Shown in pieces: positions 1 to 30,987 of a stretch of 64,000 bases of DNA. The notes under the pieces were generated by a model, which made no database searches, was not told the DNA's origin, and saw nothing but the letters and a program-made list of their open reading frames with translations. The first letter of the stretch is position 1. Each line of letters opens with the position of its first letter. Both the position numbers and the translations under genes were made by a program. The DNA comes from Plumapathes pennacea. Taxonomy: Eukaryota > Cnidaria > Anthozoa > Antipatharia > Myriopathidae. Where the stretch lies: contig OZ038467.1 of the NCBI GenBank assembly GCA_964036295.1, forward strand, positions 4,159,501 through 4,223,500, read 5' to 3'.

Positions 1-127
1 CAGACTTACGCAACAAAAGAGGCGAAACGTGACCTGTTGATTTAGTGCTCGATACATATACAATATTAAAACGAGAGCTGGATGGTGTGACGTGAATCAA
101 AGCTGTTCGTTGCTCATTTCCAGGTTG

Positions 128-530
128 CGTTTTACACGGCACGGAAACGTTTCAGCTCAATTTCGACGCGTTTCGCCTCCCGCCTACAAGAGAACGATCG
201 TTCTTCGGTGGTAAAAACGAACCGTGAGGCTCTCTGAGAGAGGCTCTCTTCGAAAACCCTGTGAAAAGTTGATTTGGTTTCTGCTTCCGTTTCTGAGACT
301 GTTAGCAGGGCATGCGCTTCCATTTCAAAAAGATACGCCTCAGCTACCTCAAGTTTTCACCCTTGTACACGGAAACCGAGACCGCCCGGGAGCGTTTTGG
401 ACATGATCTAACACATTTTGATTGTTTTTCAAATCGATGCGTTTCTATCACCGAATTCTAATCTTTTCGTGTAGACGGAAGGTGAAAAACACATCGAAAT
501 AGAAATGAAAACGCAGCCGTGCATAAAACG
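128..530. mobile_element. Foldback/MITE-like element with imperfect terminal inverted repeats
   Basis: The left end (CGTTTTACACGGCACGG, from 128) matches the reverse complement of the right end (ACGCAGCCGTGCATAAAACG, to 530). The match continues inward for about 60 bp with indels. No coding region or clear target duplication was seen; short ORFs across it look incidental. Confidence 0.5.
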
Positions 531-1078
531 GAGCCTCAGTCGCTTATCTGTTCAATTTGATTTCTCGGATCCGATTTCTCTGCTGTTTTTACTGACTAAA
601 ATTTAGGGTAACGAAACCTCATACTCCACATGGCTGAACAAACAGGAAGCTGTCAGAAGGTCACGCAATTCCAATAATTGTCGCCCAATCTTTGAAATAA
701 AACTCGCGTAATCCGTCACAGCGCGTGATCATGGTTAGTTATTATTTTGGATGTCTTCTGAGAGAGAGTTCTGAAATTTCTCCCAAATAAACCAAACGCT
801 CTCCACACTTTTAACGGGGGAGTTTCTTTTTCCGTGTGGGTCAAATAGCGCAAAAATTGGATCGGTTTATGTTTCATTTTGCAAGTTCGACTTATCGCGT
901 AAAGAAAACCAAGTCAAAATAACATAACTGACCTCGAAAGCAAAAATCTGATGGGACATAAAGTCTATAAAATCTGAGTAACGGCGTCTTATAGGAAATA
1001 TAGCGGGCATCAAACGCCAGAGTAGTGGATTCTAACGCAGTCTCCGCGAGGTGCAGCTGATTCTAACCATGAAACTAA
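531..1078. other. Intergenic, nothing recognised
   Basis: AT-rich stretch between two MITE-like elements. No ORF, RNA gene or clear repeat was seen. Confidence 0.5.
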
Positions 1079-1314
1079 AGGCCGATTTTCACTAGTGAAG
1101 TAAGCGGAGACGGAGACATAAGACACTTGCGCGCGTGTGAAAATTAGCGAACGGAGACGGAAGCGGAGAAGGAAGCGGTGAAGGAAGCAGAACGGAAGGT
1201 TTTCTTTTTCTTGCGTCTCCGTCTCCGCTTACGTTCATCTCCGTTCGCTAATTTTCACACGCGCAAGTGTCTTACGTCTCCGTCTCCGCTTACTTCACTA
1301 GTGAAAATCGGCCT
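1079..1314. mobile_element. PIF/Harbinger-like MITE, TAA target duplication
   Basis: A 236-bp element with about 80-bp inverted arms (AGGCCGATTTTCACTAGTGA at the left, its complement at the right), iterated GGAGACGGA/GGAAGC blocks in the middle, and TAA on both sides (1076-1078, 1315-1317). The 3-bp T-A-A duplication suits PIF/Harbinger-type MITEs. It is noncoding. Confidence 0.75.
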
Positions 1315-1317
1315 TAA

Positions 1318-1728
1318 GGATGCCGGATTCTTTAGCGAAAGTAGCGGAATCTGAAGCGAAGTCTTACTCCGGAACCTGGAGACCCCTTCACGAGGCCGCA
1401 GCAGAAACTAACTGGCAAAGTAGTCTCACGAATGCTGCGAATTAATATGAGAACAAAGCGAGCACTGCGCAAAAGGTGAAAAGGGAGGGGGTCTTATTTT
1501 AAATAGTATCTCGCATCAGTTCTATATACTGACAAATGAGTTTCAGAGGCTTTAATGCAGGCATATAAGTTCATATTTTGATATTTTTGCGACCAATATT
1601 TTCTCCTGGCTTTCGATAAATATATGATGTTTTTGTCCATAGATGGTCCATCTAAAATCTATGACTAGTTTTAGTCCTATACCCTCTACATAAATAACAT
1701 ACCAATCTGTCCTCAGTTCAATTTCACT
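1318..1728. other. 3' flank of the SLC35B3-like gene
   Basis: Probably holds the 3' UTR of the minus-strand transporter gene. A minus-strand ATTAAA occurs at 1551-1556. No other gene was seen. Confidence 0.4.
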
Positions 1729-3597
1729 TCAAACGTTTTCCATGTGCAAGCGTCTTGGTTGTCGGGCAGCGGATCGGAGTAAACGGCACCTGTCGAACTG
1801 CTGTGAAAACCACACATCCATTTTGTCCTGGTTTTTGCTGTAGACATTGAGAAAGATTCCAAAGAGGACAACCAGCCCTGACCACACGTACCTGGAGACG
1901 ACGGGAAAAAAGAAAAAAAAGAAACAAGCAAAAAGAGGAGTTTTGATGAACTGGTTTCTGAACTGATCATGTGTGCACGATTTGATGGCTCATGTCCCGG
2001 CTCTTGTCCTGCTCTCAGCAATGCTTGGTAGATCGTGGAGTGTATGTTCAAGCCCCAGAATTTTTTTTCTCTATATTTTAGCTTTCTTGGTTTTTTTAAC
2101 AGTACTCTAAACTGCCGCACAGAAGTATAACTATGCCATTGTCAGTTTTTGTAAACATTTCAAATACAGCGTACAAACTTTATCACCCACCGCCACCGTT
2201 AAATCAAATATAGTACAAAGCTAGCACAAGCCAGATAAAGACTCCATAACACCCAAGGAGTAGAAGACAAAACAACAAACAATAAGCACATCTTACTGTG
2301 TGTTGAAGGGCTTTGTGAAGAATAGAAACGACAACACCATCGTAACTGCTTTCCGACAAGTGGTCACTACAAAGAAAACGAAAACACGCACATGAGAGTA
2401 TTCACTTGGAAAATATGTTATCATAGACTGTTTTTTTCGAAAGTAATCAACAGAACAACTTGCGCACCGGTTACAGCCACAAGAGCCCCAAACGTCCTGA
2501 CAAGAGTGAGTACGAATGTAACACCAAGGTAACCGGTAACTGAAAACACAAAAGCCAGCCCGTAGTTTTGTAGGGGATTCTGTCGAGAAATAGGCCAAAC
2601 GTTCAGTTTGCTGAAATTATAAAACTAGATGGCATTCTACTACTTTTGGGACCATTCTATCTTACTTACTTACAGGAAATTAGCCAGCATATTCTGGCTA
2701 TGCCCGCGCAGACCGGTCCGCGCAATTTTCCCGCCGAAATACCGGCTAATTTTTCGTTCCCAACACAATCGATATCCGTCGAATGCGCCAGATAGATTGT
2801 GCAGATGTTTCGAGCGTTCCAGGCCTTTTATCAGGCCTAACGTGGGGGTTTGGAGCATTTCAATACCTGTGCAAAGAATTCAAATGCTTTCCAGAGTCCT
2901 CCAGATGTAAAAAGACCAAAAAAGATGTACAGGAATCCAATTCCATACGAGTATAAAACCTGTGAAGGCATGAAAAATATTGTCAATCCTGTGAATTCCA
3001 CTGCCAAACTTGTTCAATCATTTTCAGTGAATATCTTTCTTCCTTCATTCTCAGGAGTGATCAAGTTCTCCTTCAGATACTTTGCTCCTTTGAAAGCTGA
3101 TCAAACTATCAATTCTCGCTAGAAAACTCAGTCATTTCTTTCTTTAAGATTGAGAGAATATGCGTTTTGATCTTGGGAGTGATTGACTAAGTATAGTTAG
3201 TGTAAGGGGGAGGGCCGTAAAGAGCGCAAAGATAATCGTTTACTGTATAGTGACATAGTTAAGAATTAATAATGCTTCAATCAGCAAGGTGAAGATATGC
3301 AGTGACTTGAATTAAACATTTGATAATCTAAACAGTCAGTGGCTTCATGCCAAGCTTTGTTTTTACTGAACCTACCATACAGTATACACACAAACATACA
3401 GTAGTGGACCAAAATAATGGTACATGGGTCAAGGACTATTGATCGTGCCAGAATTATCTCTGACCAACTCACCACTTCAGTGTTGCTACTTCTATGTGCC
3501 TTCATTGTCTTTTCTTGCACATTACCAATGACAGCATCAGCACACAGAGCAAGGGAGATTAATAAAATTCCTGCATGAAAGCCATTCAAAGAACTGT

Positions 3598-3637
<40 letters not shown>

Positions 3638-5819
3638 TTTAATAATTATTAGAAAGATTAATAACATTCCTGCATGAGAGCCAATCAAAGAATTAATGTT
3701 ATAATAATAATAATAATAATAATAAAAATATATTATATAAAATTGTATAAAATATAGAGCATTAAAAATGCAGAGAAGTTTTGATATAATGGTGAATGCC
3801 TTGGAGGGGGTATCTGCCACCCTAAGGGTATTTAAATATATTGCTTTCAAACATTTTAGTCTGACAAAGATTACGGATTTTGTCTTTTTGATCTGGAATG
3901 AATTAATAGATTTTTATGGTGTTTGCTTTGATATAGGGTGTCAAAGTTTGGGACACAGATCTGAATTTGGGATACGGACTGAAATAATTAAGAGAGACAA
4001 GACAATGGGTGAAAACATGTAGATACAGGTCTGAAATAGTTGAAAAATTGTATAGTGTATTTTTGTCTGAAATAGGGTAAGGGTTTTTTTCTAAAGTATG
4101 AGTACTCTCCCCCCCCCCCTCCCCCTGAGGTGAACATCACACTAATATCCAAGAATATTTACCTGTGTGGTTGAATTCTGGTTGTACTTTACTGTCAGTC
4201 AAAGTGAACCATATTAAACCAGCACTCATGCATACACAAGCAGTAAAGTCTATAAATCTGTACTTTTTCCCTGCAACCAAATACCATATAATTTACAATA
4301 ATATTCTTATTGAAATCACTTTAGCAGGACTCTTGGTAAGCATGTTTATGTGAACATTATGTACTCAGTAACTATGTACTATTAATAATGTCAATCAATA
4401 TGAAATTATTTCTATTGTGTTGTGAACCAAAGAGCAAAACCATAGATATATCACACAGCTAGTTTATATTTCTTGACTTGGGAATCTTTTGAGTCTTCTC
4501 CAACTTCCACCCAAAAAATAAAGAGGTTTGTTATTCATGTCAGTCTGACAATACCTTGTATTAGGATTCCTCCAACCATTACTGGTATTAGCTTGCAGCA
4601 TTTGAAAATCACCTGAAAAGCAGAAAAATTAGTAAAAGATCTGCCTATATAGGAATTATCAAATATAGATAGATTGGGGGGGGGGGGGGGGGGGAGGGGG
4701 GGGGGGGCACTTAATGTATGCCTTTTGTACAGGGAGGCTCCACCCAGGCCTTCAATGCCATCCTGTATTCACTTTGTTCTGGACATTTATGAATAAAAGC
4801 TGGGTGAACAGAAGAAACTAGTGACATCTAGTGTACCTGAGTAGGATAATTTAAATATCCCAGAGAAGTATTAGAAAGGCCCATAGTTGAGACTGTCAGA
4901 AAGGCCAGAATGGCATAAGTCTTGAGTGGAATCCTGAAAGAATAATGGTTACATAAATACAATCAGAAAGTGAGAAATCTTGGATATTTTGAACATTTTC
5001 AAATACAGTTCTAATTTAGTATTAAATGCATGCATCAACTCACTTACTTTCTTGTTTTGTCCTGGTGAAAACTGGTCTCAATCATTCCAAACATGCTGTA
5101 GTAACCAAATTGTACTAAAGTCAGATACCAACCAAAACTCTTTAAACCAGGTACTCTGAAGATCCATTCCTGAAACAGCATAACACATTGCAACATCTGT
5201 TAAGCTTGTATAGAACTCTGTGTACCAAGATCCTCTTTCCTTTATTAAATTGACCTCTTGGTTTGTATTATGTTATTTATATTACTTCACACATTGAAGA
5301 TATTTTTACAATATTGTTACTGTAATTATACAGCTGCTAAATACAGTAGGAGCAGAACCATTATACTAGGAAATTCACTATAATTACAACATAGTACTTA
5401 TTTAATGACTATAATTTTAAACTATGTTTTTGCTCCTTAAGATCTCACTAAAATTGAGGCACTATATCAGAGATCGAAACACCAACACTACTGGAAGGAG
5501 ATGTCTTTTTTAACGTCTTAATTTAATCATGAAAAACAGCAAGCGGATGCCACATTACCTGTACGTAACCATAGATTAAGTAAAACAAGAAGACGCCTCC
5601 AGAACACACGAAAAATTGCACGGATTTGGAAAAAGAACCAAGACGAATGCCAAACACCACCGGTTCGTCTCCTGTTCTCGCATCTTCCATCTTCGCACGC
5701 ACATCTTGTATTGATATTACTGTACTAGTGGTAATGATATTACTTGGGCCTGACATGGGACGGTAGAATCTTGAGCTTGGTATTGTTCGTGCCGTGTAAA
5801 TGGACTCATATGTTTCCAT
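1729..5819 (-). CDS. SLC35B3: SLC35B3-like PAPS transporter (10 coding exons)
   Basis: Nucleotide-sugar-transporter-family protein, the likely orthologue of PAPST2, which carries the sulfate donor PAPS from cytosol into the Golgi. Coding exons in transcript order: 5559-5819, 5048-5169, 4837-4933, 4555-4612, 4163-4270, 3473-3570, 2867-2959, 2468-2579, 2297-2366, 1729-1891. All junctions are GT-AG and phase is kept throughout, giving 393 aa (human about 400). Family signatures seen: FYLIYGYVQ at the first membrane segment, GWYLTLVQF, TMGLSNTSLGYLNYPTQ, FKCCKLIPVM, LALCADAVIGNVQEK, FGALVAVTVTT, and a C-terminal YVWSGL followed by NVYSKNQDK. The N-terminal ~60 aa are poorly conserved and cytosolic. 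The exon at 2468 starts at AATCCC; an upstream AG at 2611 would break frame. (AAT)n arrays lie in the introns. The start is the only in-frame ATG of exon 1; function is by family. Confidence 0.92.
3600..3731. repeat. (AAT)n microsatellites, two blocks
   Basis: Two AAT trinucleotide arrays (about 3600-3640 and 3702-3731) separated by a partly duplicated sequence (GCATGAAAGCCATTCAAAGA versus a near copy at about 3673). They lie in an intron of the SLC35B3-like gene and make a Tyr-rich spurious ORF. Confidence 0.85.
4676..4707. repeat. Poly(G) run in an intron
   Basis: A nearly uninterrupted run of about 30 G with one A, within an intron of the SLC35B3-like gene. It may form a G-quadruplex and its length is prone to assembly error. 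Confidence 0.8.
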
Positions 5820-7891: not shown

Positions 7892-10800
7892 TCAGAGTTG
7901 GAGCGTCATAGAGGAGCCGGTCATCCCGTTGTAGATGTACGTGTTGCAGAAGGGAACAAACTGGCGGGTAATCAGCTTTACCACTTCCTGTGCTGCAGCA
8001 CCTGAGGGAAGAAAGCAAAATAATCTCCTTTAGCCAATCATTACAAAACACTATGAAAAACAACAACAACAACGAAAGTGTGGGAGAGCTAAACGATGTT
8101 TTAATTTAAAAATTTTTATACGAGCCCTTTACACAACGCAATCTGTCTTCATTGCTACCCTGACCCTTCCATTATTTTTTATTCTACGTCCAAATAAAAA
8201 TTAAAACCTCATGACACGCGCTTAACGTGGACACTAATATTAGAATGTACTCACTGAGAGCGTCATTTGAGCGCTCACACCTTTAGATTTCATTCGGCAC
8301 TTCACGAATTCTAAGTGAATACTGCTATTAGAATGTACGCATAGATAGCTTGCATTTGAGTGGTCACACTTTTACGTTTCATTTGACAGTTCAGGAGTTG
8401 AAAGTGAACACTGCTGTTAGAATATACTCAAGGATAGCTTTCAATTAAGTGGCCACGTTCTCTCTCCGCATATGCTCAATGCCATCAACTTTTCAGCATG
8501 GCACTCGACTAAAGAGCTGAAAATAAAAAACTACCGGATGTTACGGCCGACATGAGCCAACTACTCACCTCCTATAAAGGCAGCCACGGGGTGCAATTCA
8601 CTTGCTCCATATCTGCACCTGGAAAGTACATCACAAGCTAACATTTTTACAAGGTCACATCAATTTTCACCAGCAACACACGTACAAGAGCTTTTGCATA
8701 ATTCCTTATTTCACGGTGAAAACAGAAATGCTTTGCGTCGTCACTTTTATTTCATTATTTAGAGCAAATAAATAATGGAAAACACAGAAAAGCATGCAAT
8801 CTAAGCATGCAATAAAAAACAACAACAACAAACGAAACCCAAGATATAACACACAATAGAAAATAACAACAACGCAGAGGATTTACATTTCATGTAGATA
8901 CTCGTCTTTGATATTCGCACAAATGGACCATTCTTGAAGGACAGAACTTGCACATGCCTGCAGAAGTTAAACACTAGCCTCAATAAAGCGTGTTGTTCGA
9001 CCTGCTTCAAGTGACGGGATTTCATCCAACAATGTCTTAATTGTGTCAAATAAATAGCGACTCTTAGCCAAGAAACTACCTCAAGAAACTGCCGTTCTAG
9101 CTTGAAGCTTATGAAAGAAGTCCTGTTGTGAGTGAATTTTAGGCTGAAAGCTGATCACAAAGTTTTGAACATTTGTTCATGCACATACTCAAGTACACAC
9201 GAAACGCGCATCAGACAGAAAACATCGTCAATCTGTGACGTCACGCGGCGGTTGGCTTCGGCGTGAAAATAAGACATTTCCAATTTTTTTTTAAACTTCG
9301 CCCGAGCTACTTCAGTTTGGCAGAATTGTTTCCGAACGTACTGAAGTGTATGATAAAAGCGCATTAGGCAGAAAATATCGTTAATTTCCACCAAGTAAAT
9401 TTGCTGGTTATCCAAAAGAGAAAACATATCATCCCCGCCTTACGTTCTTACTGGCGGAAATGTTGCGCTCGTGTCTAAACAGGAGCCCCAGTCATCAGTT
9501 CCTAACCTTGAGTTTTAGAACATCCGCCTCCACCTGCTCGTCAAAATGCCCTGTGAACAAAACGAAGCGATAAATAATCATTAATTTAAAGATTGAACAG
9601 GCGAACTGACAGACAATAGAAAAACGCACGATACCATTGTGAATTATGGTAAAGGTTAGGGCTTGTTTACGTACGGCTCAGAAGGACTTCAAGCTAAAAG
9701 AGATCCTAAACCTAACCCTAATCCTAAATCTAACCGGTAATCCCGAAATTCGTCTGTGAATATTGATGAACGTCCTTCTGAGCCGTGTGAATGAGTACTT
9801 ACCGATTGTAAAGGCAGATAGCAGTCACGTGAAGTGAATTACCTGGATATCTGTGATACTGCTTGTAAAACCTATCGAGTGCTCTGAGCAACACGTAAAA
9901 CACAGCATCACTGTCAGGGTCATCAAGGTAACTACCTGAAATAACAAAAACACAAATTTAACTATCACTTTGGAAATGACCGTGTAAATAAGCCATGATG
10001 AACAGTTGCTGAGTGTAAAACGTTCTCGTGGCTCTTGCGGAGTGATGACCACACTTGGCGAACAAGTGGAGCACAGACACCTGTCCTCAATCAGTCGGAG
10101 ATACGAAAATATATTAAATGCATGTGTGTTTCGATTCGTTGTGTCGTTTCAGAGCGGATCTGCACGAGTTCAATTTGTTTTTCGTTTGGCATGTTTTTGA
10201 TTATTCTTACAGGAGAATCTCACAAGATGAGACATCGCTACAATCCACCCAGAAAATGCCACAACACGAATAAAAGCACACAGGAAGCAAGGTAAATGAA
10301 GTACTTTTATCCTTAAATTTCTAACTGATTGGGGTGTCTACTTCTTTCAAGTATTCCTCTACCGTTTCCGTTTGCAGGGAACATAAATGACAAAACGAAT
10401 CCCGATCATCTAAAATGTTTAATGTAGACTAACAGCGCAGAGCAAAAACGTTTGTTCACCTATTTCACTGGTCTTCATAGCCGAGGGGTCATATTCATCT
10501 GCTAAAGATCGACACCTTAAAACCCTAATAAATGACGCATTCTTGCCTGCAAAAATGAAGAACAAGAGAGAACAAATTTTAAAGTTTGTAAAACCCGCAA
10601 AATGTACGTACGACCTTACAAACAAGTTAACCAGGATGTAAAAATGTGCATTCATCTTTTAGTTATACACATCATACACAGTAAGAGTGCTCGAGTTTTA
10701 GTCGACTTTAAAAACTAACAATCCAAAGATGGAGTAAAACGTAACCACCAATCCGGCCTCTCAGACGTAATAGTGTGTTATAGTTTAGTCAATGCGCTAG

Positions 10801-21548: not shown

Positions 21549-24500
21549 ATGTTTGGTTCTTTGTACCTCTCTCCAAAGGTTGCCCTGTGGGAAGGCATCG
21601 TACTTATACTCGGCTTCGGGGTTTTTGCTGCTCTCGTGGCTCATTTGTTCAGCTGGGTGCGCCGTGATTTCTACAAAGACGAGGACAACTTGGATACGTC
21701 TTTTGACGCCGGGGGCAACGTGTCTATTGGACTAACCGCCACAACCATCGTGTCACAATGGACTTGGGCCGCGACTCTATTGCAGTCATCCAATGTCGGC
21801 ACCAAGGTAAATCTGTGATACGAACTTTTCGAAACCGCGGAAATTCACTCTGCGGCCCTGCGGTCACCTTATTTTGATAACTTTGGAGAACTTTGCTTTT
21901 GATACCTTGCAATTACAGCAGATTAAACTATCAATTCTCACTACATCACTCTTACACTTTCCTCTTAAAAAGTTGGGAGAATCTGCATTTTGATCTTGGG
22001 AGTGAATAGGTTAATGCATTTTCTATAACAAAATCTGTGCACGAGAAAAACGGGGCTTGCACACTCGGGTCCCCAGGACAACGTATCGTCATGAAACGGG
22101 GCCTCAGTCTGTCTCTGGTCTTGTGTCTGACTTTTATTCACTGTTCCTCCAGTACGGCATCAGTGGTCCTTTCTGGTACGCATCAGGAGCAACCGTCCAA
22201 ATCTTACTCTTCGCAATGCTCTCCATTCAGCTGAAGATCAAATCCCCTGGCGCCAAGACTTTCCTCCAGGTGGTCCGTGCTCGCTTCGGTCGCAACACGC
22301 ACCTTGTGCTCTGCGCCTTTGCGTTCCTTTGTAACGTGGTGGTCACGGCCATGTTGATGCTTGGGGGCATCGCGGTTATGACCAGTCTGGTGGAGGAACT
22401 CAGCATCGAAATGGCCTCGATGATTATCGCCCTAGTCATCGGAAGCTACACCTTCATTGGCGGCCTGGGGGCCACGTTCTATGTCTCCTACTTCAACACC
22501 GCCTTGATCTTCGTCATCTTGTTGTGTTTTGTGGTCAAGGTCTACACAGATCCCAACCAAGAAGACAACGGCAACAGATTGGGCTCTATCAAATCCGTCC
22601 ACGAGCTCCTTTCGTGTTTTCAGGGCCCGGATGGTAACCATGACAACAGCTACCTGACCATTCTGTCGTCTGGAGGCTTGATGTTTGGGATCATCAACTT
22701 GATTGGTAACTTTGGTACAGTGTTTGTCGACCAGGCCTACTGGCAGAGTAGCGTGGCAGCTAAGCCGCGTCAGGGTGTGTGGGGCTTCCTTTCAGGGGGC
22801 CTCTGTTGGTTTGCTGTTCCCTTCTGCATGGCCACTACCATGAGTTTGGCGTACTTGTCCTTAAGCGCCTCTGAAGGAGACCAATTGCTGACGGTGCAAG
22901 AGCGAGATCAAGGATTGGTGCCTCCTTTTGTGGCCACCACATTAATGGGCCAAGCGGGCTCTTTTTTGATCCTGCTGATGATTTTGATGGCCGTAACATC
23001 GACGGGATCCGCTGAAGTAATCGCAGTAGCCTCCATTCTTGTTTATGACATCTATCAGAACTACATCCGGCCTTTTAACAGCGGTGTGGATTCTTACCAG
23101 CGTTGTATTCTTTGCAAGAATTTCAAGGCACAGTATACTTCGGTCGCCGCTGGAAAAGAGGTATTGTGTCCCCTATTATATTTGTACCAACTAAATTCAT
23201 AGCTGCAAGGAGGAAAATATGTTCGACTTATTAACAATTTACTGCCTCAGCTCTTCAGTCGACACTCCACAAGAACATCATGATATACTTGAAAAGAGGC
23301 GACAGAAAAGACCTGGTGTCTGCGAGGTCGTAATAATCACACATTAGCGACGATGAGGATATGACGATGGTATTGATGGTGCATTAGTCTTGTTATTGGT
23401 TGTCACTGATGATAGCAATGATGGTGGCTATGGGGTAATGATGACAGTGATGATAGTATTGGCGATGGTTGTAGTGATAATGATAATGATGGTGATGGTG
23501 ATAATGATGGTGATAATGATAATGATGGTGATAATGATGGTGATGGTGATGGTGATAATGATGGTGATGGTGATAATGATGGTGATGGTGATAATGATGG
23601 TGATGGTGATAATGATAATGATGGTGATAATGATAATGATGGTGATGGTGATAATGATGGTGATGGTGATAATGATGGTGATGGTGATAATGGTGGTGAT
23701 GGTGATAATGATGGTGATGGTGATAATGGTGGTGATGACGTTCGCGATGGCAGTGTAGATAATTATGGTGATGACATTAATTGGTGGTGAGGACCTTCAA
23801 ACTTTGTGAGACGGTGCTGTGAAAATAAACACCTTAAAAAGAGTATTTTCCATCTAATGACCACAAAAGTGACTGCTTCTTTCCTGTACCATTTTTTTCC
23901 CTTTTGCTTCCCTGTTCACCCCAAGGTGTATAACCCGACTAATAACTCAACGTTCCTGTTCTACAGGTCTGCAAATGCTGCCCTGTTTCTCAGTGTGCCG
24001 AATGCCGCAAAGATGATCTGGATCGTGCAAAATCATGCTCAGTTAAAAGTCCCTTCAACTGCCCCACCCATGGTACCCTGCGAGCTTATGGAGAGCTGCT
24101 TTTGGCATACAAGAACTGGGCCATCGTCTGGATCACCTTGGCAACCATTCCGCTGACCTTGGTACTAAGCGCGCTGAGTGTCAGCCTCGGCTGGGTGTAC
24201 CTCTTCATGGGAATTCTGATTGGCCCTGCAGTTATCCCCATTGCGCTTGTCGTGTTTTGGGATAGGCTAAGCTCCCACGGTGTGATCGCTGGCTCGTTAG
24301 TGGGCGTGGTTTGCGGTTTTGTCACGTGGTTGTCCGTGGCCTCCACTTATCCTCACGGTCTTTCTGGCAGCTTTTTCCTCGAAAACACCGGTCGTGAGTT
24401 ACCCATGCTGTGTGGAAATTGCGTATCCATCTTAGTTGGAGGCTTGGTGTGCGTTGTTGTGAGTCTCTGGAAAAACCGAAACATGACCAGGGAGGCCCGC

Positions 24501-27500
24501 GAGGAAGTCTGGGAGAGGACACGTGGTATAGACAACGAACTGTCCCCGTGGGCTGAGAGGTAAACACGATATGAACGATTCCATATCTTGTGTGCTAAGT
24601 TTGTTTTAGAAATGAGTTAAAAATGTAGAGGATGAAAATCAGTATTTACGGCCACAAATTGCTGAAATTTAAAAAATGAAATCCGAGCGATGTGTTTGGG
24701 GCGACTGTCTACAAGAAATTTGTTTTTGCGTTTGCTATACCCTTTTAGATTGGTCCAACAAGTTCAGAGGCATTCTTGGCCAGTCACGAACAAAAAACAA
24801 AACAAAAAATCCCGATTGCGAACTGCTCACGTAAGCAAGCAAGTGGCTAGCGTTTTTTGACACCAAACGCAAATTACTTTGACTCCTGGTTGGTTTGACG
24901 CTGTAGTAAATTTGTTGTTTGTTTTCGGAAAGTCATTCTAGCTCTATTTCGAGTAAAAGTTGTTAGTTAATTTTCATAGCGCCATTGTTATAAGATAACC
25001 ATGCATGATTGTTGCTTTTTGCCTCAGTTTCAAAGCGAGGTTTAGTGCAAAATTGTCAAGGGACAATTCGGAACAATTTGGAAGTTTATTATAAAGAATA
25101 ATATTTCGGCTATCCTGGAGCGAACTTGTATTTGCAAACGGAAGGACTCACATTTGACCTTCGGACTTAGGTTTGCAGTAGCCTTTAGGAGCATAGTTCA
25201 TAAATGAGGTCAGCGAAGCATTTGCGTGTGCAGCACAAACCGCAGGAAAGCCATGGCGCCAGGTTCACTACGAATGTGCCTGTCGGTAAGCTTTACCTGC
25301 ACGATTTGAGCTAAGCTGCGAAGTGGTTGCACGGCATCGTGATGCACAGACACCTTAGGAGTCTTTGTAGTCGCCTATGCCGTGGAAATTCCGTCCATTC
25401 CTTTCCGGTCTAATCTCATTGTGGTTTTGCTATCCAATTTAGTTGTCTATCCAAACGGAAGTTTGGTATCGCTGTACGTGCTCCCTGAGCATACTTAAAC
25501 CGGTAGTTTGTAGTGTTGAGTTGAGTTGAGTTGAGTTGAGTTGAGTGGAGTTGAGCTAGAGTTGTGACTTGGAGCCCGAGCTCTCCGTTAGTCTCGAAGC
25601 TCAAGAGCTCAGCACTGAATCCCGAATAAAGAAGTCATCGAGTACAGAAGCGAGTCCCCTAAAATCTGCTCCGTAACAGATTTCTGGTGCTAAAATCCGC
25701 GGCACAACCGTTCCCGGTAAGACCTCTCAGTTTTGTAGTGAGTGTATCGAAGTTGTGAGTGTACTGCCAAGCCAGGCAACATGTAAAGTGTAAAGTAATA
25801 AGAACAATATGTAACAAAAAAAGTCTAGAAAAAAACTCGAAAAAAAAAAAAAAAAAAGGAAAAAAAACATTATGTATGTTGTAGTTATATAGTAAACTGA
25901 TTGATGTGTCGTTCCAAATGTTTGATAATCAATGCTAGGCGTCTATTTTAATGTTCATGCAGTAAGCTGACGATTTTTCCAAATTGATCGTGATCTCGCT
26001 GTGAGTTGATACGGTATTGTTCGCGAGTTTGTCTTGGGTAATTTAAGGTTTCAAACTGTTGACTCGAAGCAAAACTAAGGCTTTGACGGACTCCTCAAAA
26101 GCAAAATCGGGTTTGGACCTAGATGAACCGGTAGCTCAATCGGTCCTGTCAGCATTGGAATCAGATTCGGAATCAGAGTCGACGGAATCATTTACTGATG
26201 CAATTGAAATAACAGAAAGTTTCATGGCAGACGGCGGAGACCCAACGGCTCAGGCCACGGTAACCTTAACGGCAAAAGATGTTCTCCAGCTATTGGAGGA
26301 CCAAAACCAGCGTTTTGCCGAGAAATGGAACGCTCAAACAATCGCTTTGGCGAAAATTGTCGAAAACTCAAGCAAACCGACTGGGCCTGCCAAGTATAAT
26401 AGCGTTAAGTTACCCACATTTTCCGGTAGCTTTAATGAAGATGTCAATGAATTTTTGACCAATTTCGAACGGGCAGCCACCTTTCATGGGTGGCAAAACG
26501 AACGAAAAGCCCAGGCGCTGCCCCTGCATTTAAAAGAAAACGCCAGCATTTGGTTTAACACCAGTCCCGATTTAGCCGACAAGTCGTATGAGGGACTGAT
26601 GGAAGCGATGAGAAATCAATTTCACTCGGCATCCGATAAATGGCTACTTCGCCAAAAATTGAACGATCGGAAACAACTGTCAACCGAATCAGTAACGGAA
26701 TATGCCGCAGACATAAGACGAACTTGTCAGCGAATCGATTTACCGCGCTCTGAATGTGTAAACCATTTTGTGCAGGGCCTGAAACCCGAAATCAAGAATT
26801 ATGTAGTGCTTCAACGGCCAGGGACACTAGAAGAAGCGGAAAATCACGCAAAATTAAAAGAGTCAGTGCCCGAGCCTAAAACGGACGACAAAATTGACGA
26901 TTTGGTAAAAGCAATAACGCCATTGTTAAAATCAGCTCCGCCAGCCACAATTGCTGCGTACGAGAGCCACCAATCATCTAGCAATCGTGTGAACGAACGA
27001 CCCCTGAACCGCGACGACATTGCCCAAATTGTGCGCCAAGAATTGCGTCGCACGAGCGACAGCCGCGCCAACAACAGGGGAAACACAAATCGTAACAGAC
27101 GTACTTTTGACGGCCGTCCAATTTGTAATTATTGCAACAAACCAGGCCACGTGGCCTACGCCTGTCGTCAACGGCAGGGACAACGGGACCCCAGGCTCCC
27201 AAATTATAACCCCGAGAGATATGCGGGCCAGTCGGAACAGCACCCGACAGGTCATTCCCCACCTTTAAACTAGATTTGGTCTTATGTGAACGGGAAGCAC
27301 ATAAGGCCTTTGTAAGACAGCGATTAAATCAAAACGTGAACGAAAAACCGGAAACGCCCGTAGTTTGTGATAAACCAGAGAGAAACAAAGACATGCAACA
27401 GCCTACGAACCAAATTGATTTTATGTCACGCGAGACTCACTTCCCGACCGATGTAAAAACGAAACCACAAAATGTAGAGAAACGAACCGAATTTAAAGGC

Positions 27501-30500
27501 TACCCTGCTCGCTCCGAGCAGATGGCAGCACGAATGAGACGACGACGAGAAGAGGAAAAGAAAGCGCAACAAAACAAACAGTGCGCAATTGCCGAAATCA
27601 ACACTATTGCTGCCCCAACTGTCGCCGCACATGCCAAAGTTAATATCTGTGTGTCGGAAGCTCAGAATAACCCAGTCCTATTTGAAATAATTGTGCCGCG
27701 AAACGCCGAAATTGTTATGGACAATAGTCAAATTGTCTTCACAGAGTCACGCCCTGCGTACAACGAAACTAGAGTGGAATCTGAAGAACGTAAAATTGAG
27801 ATTGACCAATCCGTCGAAACTGTGGATAAAATACTGTCGTACATGAGGTTAATAGAGTATGTAACTGCGCTTATAAAGAAGCCACGGTCTAATGTGGAAG
27901 TTGAAACAACTTCAACAGAGTCAATCGAAAGTAAAGTTAGAGTCCCAGATACCCCTCCAATCGAAACGCAGCAAATGAGTCACGAAGAACAAATTTCAGA
28001 TGCAGAGCAGAACGCAATTCATTTCACGTCACCGAGTGAAAGTTTAACGATCGACGGCACGATCATGGACAGGAATCTCAAATTCCTAATTGACACCGGC
28101 GCTAATGTGAGTGCAATTAAAGCAGACGTGTGGCGTCAATTACCTCCGCCCACTAAACACCCTCCGGAACCGACGACAATTACCACAATCCGATCAGTCA
28201 ACGGTCAAAACATTCCAGTTTTGCGACAGCCTGACGGTCCTTTCGAAATAGCATCCAAGCACAAGGGACCCGGTTTGACTTTTCAACACGAGAGTCACGA
28301 TGAAGTATTTTTCCAAGGTGTTGTACTCACAGTTTTGTTTTTGGTGATTTGGAAGTCGGTCATTTTCAAGCAGATGGAGAGACGACTATTTCGAACATGG
28401 AAATGCTGCAAATCCATGCTTCATTTTGGACCCTCGTCAGCAGCTCTAGGCAAAGAATTGCAGTGGCTCTTTCGCAAACACGAGAGGGAGAAATTGTCTC
28501 TCGATTGTTTTAGGGTCTGTCCAATAGGCGAATTAGAAAAACGGTATGGTTCTGAACACTTGTTAAAACAATTGCAGCTATAACCATTATCACTGAACGG
28601 ACTGATTGCGCACTGCGTTCGTAAGCCAAACCTAGCTATACTCATGTTTTGATATGAATTCGAGTTATCTTTTTACGTTGTGCCGGCAATATCATTTTCA
28701 ACTTTCAGAGTGAGATCAGTAGCTGTTCGTTCAACCTTTCGTTTTGTCTGTCAGTATATTTTATCAACCGTTTGGAATGACACAGTTCTTTTCAATTAAC
28801 GTAGCCAGACACCTATTGATGTAGCCACTTAGCTCTTATCTTAGTCTTTTCGTCAGTAGGACTCATATTTTGTATCTAAGTGTTAGCTTTAGTCTGGCTT
28901 GGTTTTTCTCATCACTTTGATACCCCACTCACATCTCAACGACGCCACATCTACGCCACCTGTTCTAATCACCGGCACTCATGTTGTACTCTTGGCTGAT
29001 TCGCTGACTACAAACGAGAATTTATACTGGTACACAATTCCTGCCTAATACAACGTTGGACCACGCAGCCGAAGTCAGGACAACGTCCACTCGTTGTCAA
29101 GAAAACCCACTCGTCAAAGAGAGAACAACCAAACATCCAAACGCGTGCTTTTCAGAAGATCAGTGAACTATCTACGCAAGAGGCGACAGGCTCTGTCAAC
29201 AAGCAGCCCCACGATACCGCACGCCATGATACTGCGTGACCGCAAATCCAAAAAACAAACATAAGAACATGTCCAACAGAACGATTCTAGTCAAACTTGC
29301 ACGTACCATATGACTCCATTTCCATCCAGCGATATCTCAGCCGATCCAGACTTGCTACTTGCTACTCCTTACTACTGGCGCAAGAACAAGACCGTCCAAC
29401 CAAGAACCCGATCTTCCAAGACCCTGAACTTATGTCACGCGACATATCAGACAACGACAAAAGAACACTCTCGGTTGAACCTATTGAGACTCTGAACATT
29501 GCCATTGCTTAAACTTTGTGTAACGAATTTCACATACAGTATGTTACTCCCATACTAGTCGCTTAGAAATAACTGAACTTGGTAAAATTAGTTGATTTAG
29601 CATGTAACAAGTGACATGCTGTGCACGGGAAATTGGTAAAACATTGCTTTAAATTGTCGCTCGCATGTACCCCGCGAAACATGCTTTATATGTCCTTAGT
29701 GTAGACGAGTTTTCTCATTTGTTACTGTTAGTACGATACGGCATTCGCTGCCCGGTACTTTTTTTTATATATTCTTAGGAACACTTACGTATGCAACCGC
29801 AAGGTCTCCCTCCAGATGTATTCTACCAAATTGTTTTCTTTTTTTCTTCTTTTTAGTCGCCGGAGTCGACTTTACAAAACAGGGGGGTAATGTCAAGGGA
29901 CAATTCGGAACAATTTGGAAGTTTATTATAAAGAATAATATTTCGGCTATCCTGGAGCGAACTTGTATTTGCAAACGGAAGGACTCACATTTGACCTTCG
30001 GACTTAGGTTTGCAGTAGCCTTTAGGAGCATAGTTCATAAATGAGGTCAGCGAAGCATTTGCGTGTGCAGCACAAACCGCAGGAAAGCCATGGCGCCAGG
30101 TTCACTACGAATGTGCCTGTCGGTAAGCTTTACCTGCACGATTTGAGCTAAGCTGCGAAGTGGTTGCACGGCATCGTGATGCACAGACACCTTAGGAGTC
30201 TTTGTAGTCGCCTATGCCGTGGAAATTCCGTCCATTCCTTTCCGGTCTAATCTCATTGTGGTTTTGCTATCCAATTTAGTTGTCTATCCAAACGGAAGTT
30301 TGGTATCGCTGTACGTGCTCCCTGAGCATACTTAAACCGGTAGTTTGTAGTGTTGAGTTGAGTTGAGTTGAGTTGAGTTGAGTGGAGTTGAGCTAGAGTT
30401 GTGACTTGGAGCCCGAGCTCTCCGTTAGTCTCGAAGCTCAAGAGCTCAGCACTGAATCCCGAATAAAGAAGTCATCGAGTACAGAAGCGAGTCCCCTAAA

Positions 30501-30987
30501 ATCTGCTCCGTAACAAAATCTTATGAAAATGAAGTTGACTGTGAAATTGATTACCTTTGCACAAGGCCTCGTTCTGTTGCTTCATAACTGCGAGGGTCAC
30601 TTCCACTGTCATTCTTTGTCCGCAGCTCATACATATACATAGATCACATCAGAGACAAAATGGTCTGTCGAAAACTCATCGGTGATCGCTGGCCACTTTT
30701 TTTATTACAGTTACGCTAGGGAATTCAACCTCTCCGACCCATCCAAAAGGCCCTCGATGAAGGAAATCAACTCCATGTTCCGCACCACCAAAATGATCGC
30801 GTATGTGGGAGGCGCGGTTCTCGCGTTGATCTTGTTCGTGCTGTGGCCCGCCTTAATGGCCGCCGTGAAGTCCATGGACTTGTCCAACTTCACCGTTTGG
30901 GTTTTCGTGTCCATGATCTGGGCTTACGCTGCTGCTGCCTTCCTTATCATTGTTCCTCCTGTCCAGGAGTCAGTGCGATCACGGTGA
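21549..30987 (+). CDS. DUR3-like urea/solute:cation symporter (4 exons)
   Basis: Sodium:solute symporter family, closest to the fungal and plant urea-proton symporter DUR3; a plasma-membrane urea or polyamine uptake role is inferred from family. Exons: 21549-21806, 22153-23160, 23967-24559, 30711-30987, joined by GT-AG introns in consistent phase, giving 711 aa. Signatures: GGNVSIGLTATTIVSQWTW, AATLLQSSNVGTKYGISGPF, KSPGAKTFLQVVRARFG, GGLGATFYVSYFNTA, FVDQAYWQSS, STGSAEVIAVASI. About 13-14 hydrophobic segments are visible. A Cys-rich loop encoded across the exon 2/3 junction (CILCKNF, then CKCCPVSQCAECRK) is unusual for the family core. Exon 1 is taken from the ATG at 21549; an upstream noncoding or short coding exon cannot be excluded because an AG precedes GTTGCCCTG. 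Intron 2 holds a GATGGT microsatellite and intron 3 an intact LTR retrotransposon. An ATTAAA signal lies at 31318. Confidence 0.88.
23473..23745. repeat. GATGGTGATAAT microsatellite/minisatellite
   Basis: About 270 bp of GATGGT/GATAAT units, locally an 18-mer of three GATGGT/GATAAT blocks, in intron 2 of the DUR3-like gene. It creates a 122-codon Met/Val/Ile open frame that is not a gene. Confidence 0.95.
25054..25678 (+). repeat. 5' LTR
   Basis: A 625-bp long terminal repeat starting TGTCAAGGGACAA and ending CTCCGTAACA. It contains a GTTGA pentamer array near 25510-25550 and AATAAA at about 25625, consistent with a polyadenylation signal near the R region. No difference from the 3' LTR was seen when read side by side. 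Confidence 0.92.
26059..27273 (+). CDS. gag: Retrotransposon Gag polyprotein
   Basis: Intact 404-aa ORF about 380 bp downstream of the 5' LTR. After an acidic Ser-rich N-terminus it shows the retrotransposon gag core around residues 110-280 (KLPTFSGSFNEDVNEFL, then LPLHLKENASIWF, the pattern of capsid-like domains of Ty3/gypsy elements), then a basic Arg/Asn-rich stretch and one CCHC zinc knuckle, CNYCNKPGHVAYAC, at about residues 356-369. Gag packages element RNA into cytoplasmic particles. The frame is unbroken, in line with the young LTRs. The next ORF is in the -1 frame and is open across the gag stop, so ribosomal frameshifting is plausible, although no slippery site was confirmed. Confidence 0.9.
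   Translation: MTRSKTKALTDSSKAKSGLDLDEPVAQSVLSALESDSESESTESFTDAIEITESFMADGGDPTAQATVTLTAKDVLQLLEDQNQRFAEKWNAQTIALAKIVENSSKPTGPAKYNSVKLPTFSGSFNEDVNEFLTNFERAATFHGWQNERKAQALPLHLKENASIWFNTSPDLADKSYEGLMEAMRNQFHSASDKWLLRQKLNDRKQLSTESVTEYAADIRRTCQRIDLPRSECVNHFVQGLKPEIKNYVVLQRPGTLEEAENHAKLKESVPEPKTDDKIDDLVKAITPLLKSAPPATIAAYESHQSSSNRVNERPLNRDDIAQIVRQELRRTSDSRANNRGNTNRNRRTFDGRPICNYCNKPGHVAYACRQRQGQRDPRLPNYNPERYAGQSEQHPTGHSPPLN
27276..28583 (+). CDS. Retrotransposon protease ORF, truncated pol region
   Basis: About 435 codons, -1 frame relative to gag; the stated start is a TTG and the true entry is probably by frameshift from gag. The N-terminal part is a low-complexity linker. A retroviral-type aspartic protease begins near residue 262, with the catalytic triplet in LIDTGANVSAIK (Asp at residue 273). 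Soon after, the ORF should run on into the rest of the protease and reverse transcriptase. Instead it changes at about residue 312 into unrelated sequence with a hydrophobic stretch (VVLTVLFLVIWKSVIF) followed by a basic, Cys-containing tail. Neither the protease C-terminal half (ILGxD-like) nor a YxDD box is seen. It reads as an internal-deletion derivative. Confidence 0.75.
   Translation: MVLCEREAHKAFVRQRLNQNVNEKPETPVVCDKPERNKDMQQPTNQIDFMSRETHFPTDVKTKPQNVEKRTEFKGYPARSEQMAARMRRRREEEKKAQQNKQCAIAEINTIAAPTVAAHAKVNICVSEAQNNPVLFEIIVPRNAEIVMDNSQIVFTESRPAYNETRVESEERKIEIDQSVETVDKILSYMRLIEYVTALIKKPRSNVEVETTSTESIESKVRVPDTPPIETQQMSHEEQISDAEQNAIHFTSPSESLTIDGTIMDRNLKFLIDTGANVSAIKADVWRQLPPPTKHPPEPTTITTIRSVNGQNIPVLRQPDGPFEIASKHKGPGLTFQHESHDEVFFQGVVLTVLFLVIWKSVIFKQMERRLFRTWKCCKSMLHFGPSSAALGKELQWLFRKHEREKLSLDCFRVCPIGELEKRYGSEHLLKQLQL
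28584..29890 (+). other. 3' interior of the LTR element, no long ORF
   Basis: About 1.3 kb between the protease ORF stop and the 3' LTR. Only short ORFs (at most about 70 aa) are present and none resembles pol, integrase or chromodomain sequence. It ends in a T-rich stretch and the AGGGGGGTAA purine tract. Confidence 0.7.
29891..30515 (+). repeat. 3' LTR
   Basis: A 625-bp repeat matching the 5' LTR base for base as far as can be read, with the same TGTC start, GTTGA array and CCGTAACA end. It is followed by AAAT, the putative target-site copy. Confidence 0.92.

Follow-up and report, generated by a model that had tools for sequence, protein, structure and literature searches.

In a 64,000-nucleotide stretch of the Plumapathes pennacea genome (contig OZ038467.1, positions 4,159,501 to 4,223,500; hereafter the window, with all features below on the forward strand), positions 25054-30515 are occupied by a 5.46 kb long terminal repeat (LTR) retrotransposon that carries a second open reading frame (ORF2) besides gag. 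It is probably a recently inserted member of an old lineage of semi-autonomous Ty3/gypsy elements, which pol-bearing chromodomain partners would mobilise in trans. A first-pass annotation of the same DNA had taken it for a gag-retaining deletion derivative; instead, a coding segment has taken the place of pol, one that several diverged families without pol have in common and that the full-length copies examined lack.

The element keeps its LTR ends, primer binding site, polypurine tract and an open gag, and half a protease plus a tail stand where its helpers have Pol. A base-by-base comparison of the 5' LTR (25054-25678, TGTC...AACA) with the 3' LTR (29891-30515) disclosed no difference over 625 bp, and the 4 bp target-site duplication AAAT, an unstranded feature, lies directly outside both (25050-25053 and 30516-30519), which confirms the length, identity and flanks first annotated as well as the recent insertion read from them. 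A probable primer binding site (TGGTG..., 25685-25702) begins six bases past the 5' LTR, and the region in front of the 3' LTR (28590-29890), which ends in the polypurine tract, is common to the full-length copies of the same family (family A). The gag frame was indeed intact (26047-27273, 408 codons from stop to stop) and encodes a capsid and a zinc knuckle, with Pfam matches to Retrotrans_gag (2.7e-12) and Ty3_capsid (4.6e-12). It is followed in the -1 frame by ORF2 (27210-28583, 457 codons), made of a linker, a half protease and the tail. The annotated protease thus held in part: its DTG is present (28092-28106), but only the N-terminal half of the aspartic protease domain is there (28050-28190, gag-asp_proteas PF13975 model positions 1-47 of 92, below the curated cut-off), whereas the full-length relative matches positions 1-92. 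When the pieces of that relative were compared with the window interior, only the protease piece matched (residues 1-69 of 95), and reverse transcriptase (RT), RNase H, integrase, chromodomain and ORF3 gave no match at E<=0.01, which bears out the reported absence of the first three and rules out a hidden RT or integrase. The element therefore has the LTRs, target-site duplication, primer binding site and polypurine tract of a non-autonomous LTR retrotransposon without RT or integrase, but it is not a large retrotransposon derivative (LARD), a class defined by a non-coding interior, since gag and ORF2 are open.

The full-length pol-bearing relatives that the first-pass annotation had predicted were found in the same genome (290 Mb searched, in 24 contigs). 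Three 9.4 kb copies (L010, L013 and L016) carry the LTR of the window element and thus represent an autonomous partner with the same cis ends. Each has three open frames, namely gag with 408 codons, pol with 1560-1564 and a third one with 306-311, and the pol of L010 comprises protease, RT, RNase H, integrase and a C-terminal chromodomain, the domain content of chromodomain Ty3/gypsy elements. Since the LTR pairs of all three are free of mismatches and all are flanked by 4 bp duplications, this helper family looks recently mobile. In four short and three full-length family A copies, the primer binding site lies at the same position and the polypurine tract and LTR ends are alike. The primer binding sites themselves are of two sequence types, each present in both forms; L011 and L016 have one, and the window element, L010, L012, L013 and L017 the other, as if two tRNA primers were used. 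The third ORF of the partners bears a GDSL-type hydrolase domain (L010:2024-2959, 6e-13; L038:7811-8572; L039:7508-8269), and a GDSL ORF3 has been described in LTR elements of bdelloid rotifers (PMC5408684).

Alignment of the window element with L010 gave matches at element positions 1-3202 and 3537-5462. The 334 bp in between (28256-28589) did not match any of the three full-length copies, which have at this place about 4.34 kb running from half of the protease through the end of the third ORF. ORF2 passes through the segment to a stop at 28583, and the segment encodes a tail of about 100 residues in which a hydrophobic stretch ending in WKSV (VVLTVLFLVIWKSV, 28320-28361) is followed by basic residues and then by KELQWLFRKHEREKL; the conserved motif at 28449-28493, GKELQWLFRKHEREK, follows the pattern KELxWLxRKHEREKL. 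Other copies with the same interior were expected from the first annotation and do exist, as the segment was present at 91-100% identity in at least 16 loci, the window included. The tail was not found by tblastn in the full-length loci or locus ends L010, L013, L016 and L038-L041: L010, L013, L016, L038 and L039 matched over the protease part only, and the 3' ends L040 and L041 did not match. Its absence rules out that the tail is a normal part of these full-length copies.

A homologous tail stands behind a half protease in family B (L033 and L035), family C (L037) and one copy of family D (L045). Used alone as a query, the family C tail retrieved family A copies at E values of about 5e-16 and family B copies at about 1e-15, in each case with 50% identity over some 70 residues. 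In the whole genome the same query yielded 46 matches at E<=1, of which 41 were at E<=0.001, while the remaining five are less significant and might have arisen by chance; two elements account for two rows each, and for 31 of the 46 the surrounding frame runs for 400 codons or more without a stop. In support of a lineage confined to pol-less elements, none of the 46 tail matches lies within 39 kb of any of the 35 RT matches, the nearest pair being 39.7 kb apart. In a further family, E, a single open frame of 555 codons (C1:12431195) encodes Gag, zinc knuckle, linker and tail, with no protease match in it, and additional copies matching at 91% (74% at its end) and at 80-89% indicate that the family is multicopy. 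A database protein, P0016, is 46% identical to this frame over 97% of its length, including the hydrophobic stretch and KELLWLWRK. Because Gag and tail occur here in one frame without a protease, these sequences suggest that the tail acts by extending Gag and can do without the protease half. Among the other database proteins, P0004, P0006 and P0007 have a half protease and then a shorter form of the tail, P0011 has a partial protease and the tail, and P0001 carries the family C tail as judged by eye; P0005, from the same results, reads on into the complete protease, and the database relatives thus seem to include both forms. A different hydrophobic tail follows the half protease in P0012, P0014 and P0003, and in P0012 and P0014 this alternative tail is common to both behind different break points; these proteins may represent another such lineage.

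The gags of the dependents resemble those of the helpers. Within family A, the gags of short and full-length copies are 97.5-98.8% alike. In family B, the gag core of the short copy S34 is of the full-length F38 type (97.8%), with S33 97.4% alike to S34, and that of S35 is of the full-length F39 type (97.6%); these two core types are only about 66% alike over their alignable part, whereas the tails of S33, S34 and S35 are 91-96% alike. Full-length and short B copies share the LTR, preceded by no more than about 110-190 bp of common sequence. The gag of the short family C copy is 97% identical to one at C11:9264802-9266086, which lies beside an RT match in an open frame of 1699 codons. A gag tree of 22 rows (17 short and 5 full, the family C helper standing outside it) intermixed short and full copies with five changes, and rejected a single clade of short forms (approximately unbiased test, p=0.0007). 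As the gag tree is mixed and the tail diverges as deeply as the families do, these comparisons indicate an exchange of gag between dependents and helpers, or else a transfer of the tail to the gags of helpers, which amounts to an event of the same type.

A sequence that could bring the tail into particles lies at the end of gag. The heptamer TTTAAAC (27264-27270), which adjoins the gag stop on its upstream side and is divided as T-TTA-AAC by the gag frame, is a candidate -1 frameshift site, and such heptamers are known from retroviruses to cause -1 frameshifting. It was found at this position in all 15 short family A loci surveyed (a set taken apart from L009, L021, L026 and L027) and in all three full-length ones, and TTTAAAC was also present near the gag end of two short and two full-length family B copies. 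With this frameshift-like site before the gag stop, the tail would be part of a minority Gag fusion, in the slot that Gag-Pol has in the helpers. We therefore envisage dependents that would supply Gag and a Gag-tail fusion to particles shared with the helper, into which helper Gag-Pol would bring RT and integrase. There are strong grounds in the shared cis ends and gags to think that the dependent RNA is packaged together with the partner RNA and is then copied and inserted by the partner enzymes, and likewise that template switching within such particles has swapped gag between dependents and helpers, the tail staying with the dependents. We infer with moderate confidence that the tail is a membrane-targeting module, which would place a minority of Gag subunits at the membrane and serve the dependents themselves. 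Drosophila elements of the MDG1 group offer an analogy for a possible role in passage between cells: their sORF2, in an LTR element without env, is described as a short hydrophobic helix followed by a basic region (PMC11952523). According to the same description, however, sORF2 is a small ORF of its own, in most cases upstream of gag, and occurs in pol-bearing elements (PMC11952523), whereas the tail belongs to pol-less elements and is the C-terminal part of ORF2 or of Gag, and thus not a separate short ORF of the kind that encodes sORF2- or FAST-like small membrane proteins.

The same arrangement might serve the dependents at the expense of the helper. As interfering parasites, they would replace Gag-Pol by Gag-tail in the shared particles and bias these toward dependent RNA, the helper bearing the cost. 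Short and full-length copies of families A and B do have the same frameshift-like site with the tail in place of Pol, and family A counts at least 16 tail-bearing loci against at least three full-length copies; copy number may nevertheless have other causes, such as the shorter length of the dependents, and on balance we regard interference as rather unlikely.

Whether the segment is kept for its protein product at all was judged from its reading frames. Pairwise comparison of families A to D (six pairs) gave no stop in the tail frame and ratios of nonsynonymous to synonymous differences (pN/pS) of 0.54-0.76, whereas the other two frames of the same pairs had 6-17 stops and ratios of 0.64-1.34; corrected dN/dS between these families was 0.31-0.52 where dS was finite, dS being saturated in two comparisons with the window (B33 and D). 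An open frame that is incidental to a segment maintained as RNA, for instance as a packaging, dimerisation or export signal of the dependents, would agree with the confinement of the segment to pol-less elements, as expected of a cis signal of dependents, and with a protein constraint that is moderate. Yet it would leave unexplained the absence of stops from the coding frame alone, the homologous tail that forms the C-terminus of Gag itself in family E and the tail behind a half protease in database proteins, and we think it improbable. Equally improbable are ordinary internal deletions, by which pol would have been lost separately in each family to leave passive and functionless remnants: the protease break points do differ between families A and B and further-deleted copies occur (L009, L025 and L027), but in all four families, A to D, what comes after the break is one and the same tail, which the full-length copies examined lack. 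Its frame is kept across families and is intact through the tail motif in 12 of the 15 short family A loci surveyed. On these grounds a recent simple loss of pol, or independent deletions in each family, can be rejected.

Several observations nonetheless weigh against a mobilised lineage with a selected tail. The bootstrap intervals of tail pN/pS were below 1 in five of the six pairs, one reaching 1.05, and another frame likewise stayed below 1 in two of the six, so that the constraint indicated by these sequences is moderate. The hydrophobic stretch is short, with best 19-residue hydropathy means of 1.2-2.1 and basic residues behind it, and an AlphaFold prediction for the half protease with the tail, at a mean pLDDT of 39.8, could not be used. 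The family D tail row begins past an in-frame stop, and that copy is therefore broken. No TTTAAAC was seen in family C, where AAAAAAC is the other candidate. Taken by itself, the gag result against a single clade of short forms would be equally expected from independent deletions. Finally, RT families too diverged for the DNA query could adjoin tails unseen.

The nearest described elements are semi-autonomous partners of the RLG_Quinta type, defined by an intact Gag plus a conserved domain of other origin without RT or integrase, as the window element has. In einkorn wheat, RLG_Quinta is a Gag-plus-unknown-domain partner of the helper RLG_Cereba, and the gags of the two are described as barely matching in DNA (PMC11302176), whereas here the gags of dependents and helpers are 97-99% identical. 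In addition, the half protease, the frameshift-like site between it and gag, and a single tail across several helper families set the elements studied here apart from Quinta as described there (PMC11302176). The wheat elements RLG_Sabrina and RLG_WHAM, with RLG_Wilma, are reported as Gag or Gag-protease elements without RT or integrase that co-evolve with an autonomous partner, some variants having unique short coding segments that differ by variant (PMC9744471); in the elements studied here, several families keep one and the same segment. The present elements would work like RLG_Quinta and the RLG_Sabrina variants, and differ from them by the half protease with its frameshift-like site, one tail across families and the exchange of gag. 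In Arabidopsis, non-autonomous Athila elements are described as keeping open frames on which purifying selection acts and as having recombined across distant families, and the abstract of that report mentions no shared new domain in place of pol (PMC2410132), such as is present here. Plant TR-GAG elements, to which the first-pass annotation had likened the window element, have LTRs, primer binding site, polypurine tract and gag as sole coding region, and are below about 4 kb; the likeness is valid for gag without pol and for the cis parts, but the fit is loose, as this element is 5.46 kb long and has a second frame with half protease and tail, and the RLG_Quinta type is closer. Gag-oncogene retroviruses also have Gag fused to a segment that replaces pol and need a helper, but they arise anew and are short-lived, unlike the tail lineage, which has diversified and whose segment has no known source.

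Long-lived dependents making Gag plus a domain of their own have thus been described in grasses, and a search of one open-access library, under the terms used, showed no animal equivalent. If our reading is right, one genome holds several helper/dependent pairs, and comparisons among them could test whether dependents act as parasites or as partners and how they persist when the helper changes. The tail would provide a handle, being a Gag that seemingly has its own membrane segment in the absence of env. More tentatively, it is possible to imagine that satellite retrotransposons form an ancient guild in this animal genome, in which one Gag tail extends across at least five Ty3/gypsy families, the gag and LTRs of the helpers have repeatedly been acquired by recombination, and the tail places mixed particles at membranes, perhaps with cell-to-cell passage, the GDSL hydrolase ORF of the helpers being another membrane-related module.

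With regard to family A as a whole, gag matches of at least 95% over the whole query numbered at least 20 (40 of 55 candidates scored), comprising at least three pol-bearing, at least 15 tail-bearing and at least two further-deleted copies. L009 retains only the end of the 334 bp segment and L027 lacks it. L031, a relative of about 80% identity, is laid out in the same way but has a broken tail frame, and was not counted as evidence of constraint. LTRs were compared in 19 loci (L020, L021 and L027 standing apart), 15 of which had both LTR ends, the partial L019, L023, L026 and L029 being outside the counts; nine of the 15 (five short, L009 and the three full-length) had LTR pairs without mismatch, and 14 had 4 bp duplications. 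L018 and L024 display a matching 4 bp duplication together with 37 and 33 LTR-LTR mismatches, perhaps by LTR conversion after insertion. In L029 an insertion of about 4 kb (1543-5601) divides the gag of a short family A copy, and the family B copy of L033 is enclosed by tandem repeats of about 1.28 kb (94%; L033:1-2571 and 8352-9501). In the window, the element is flanked by open frames at 24102-24563 and 30682-30987, which by eye resemble parts of a single solute-symporter-like gene in the same direction, so that the element may sit in an intron.

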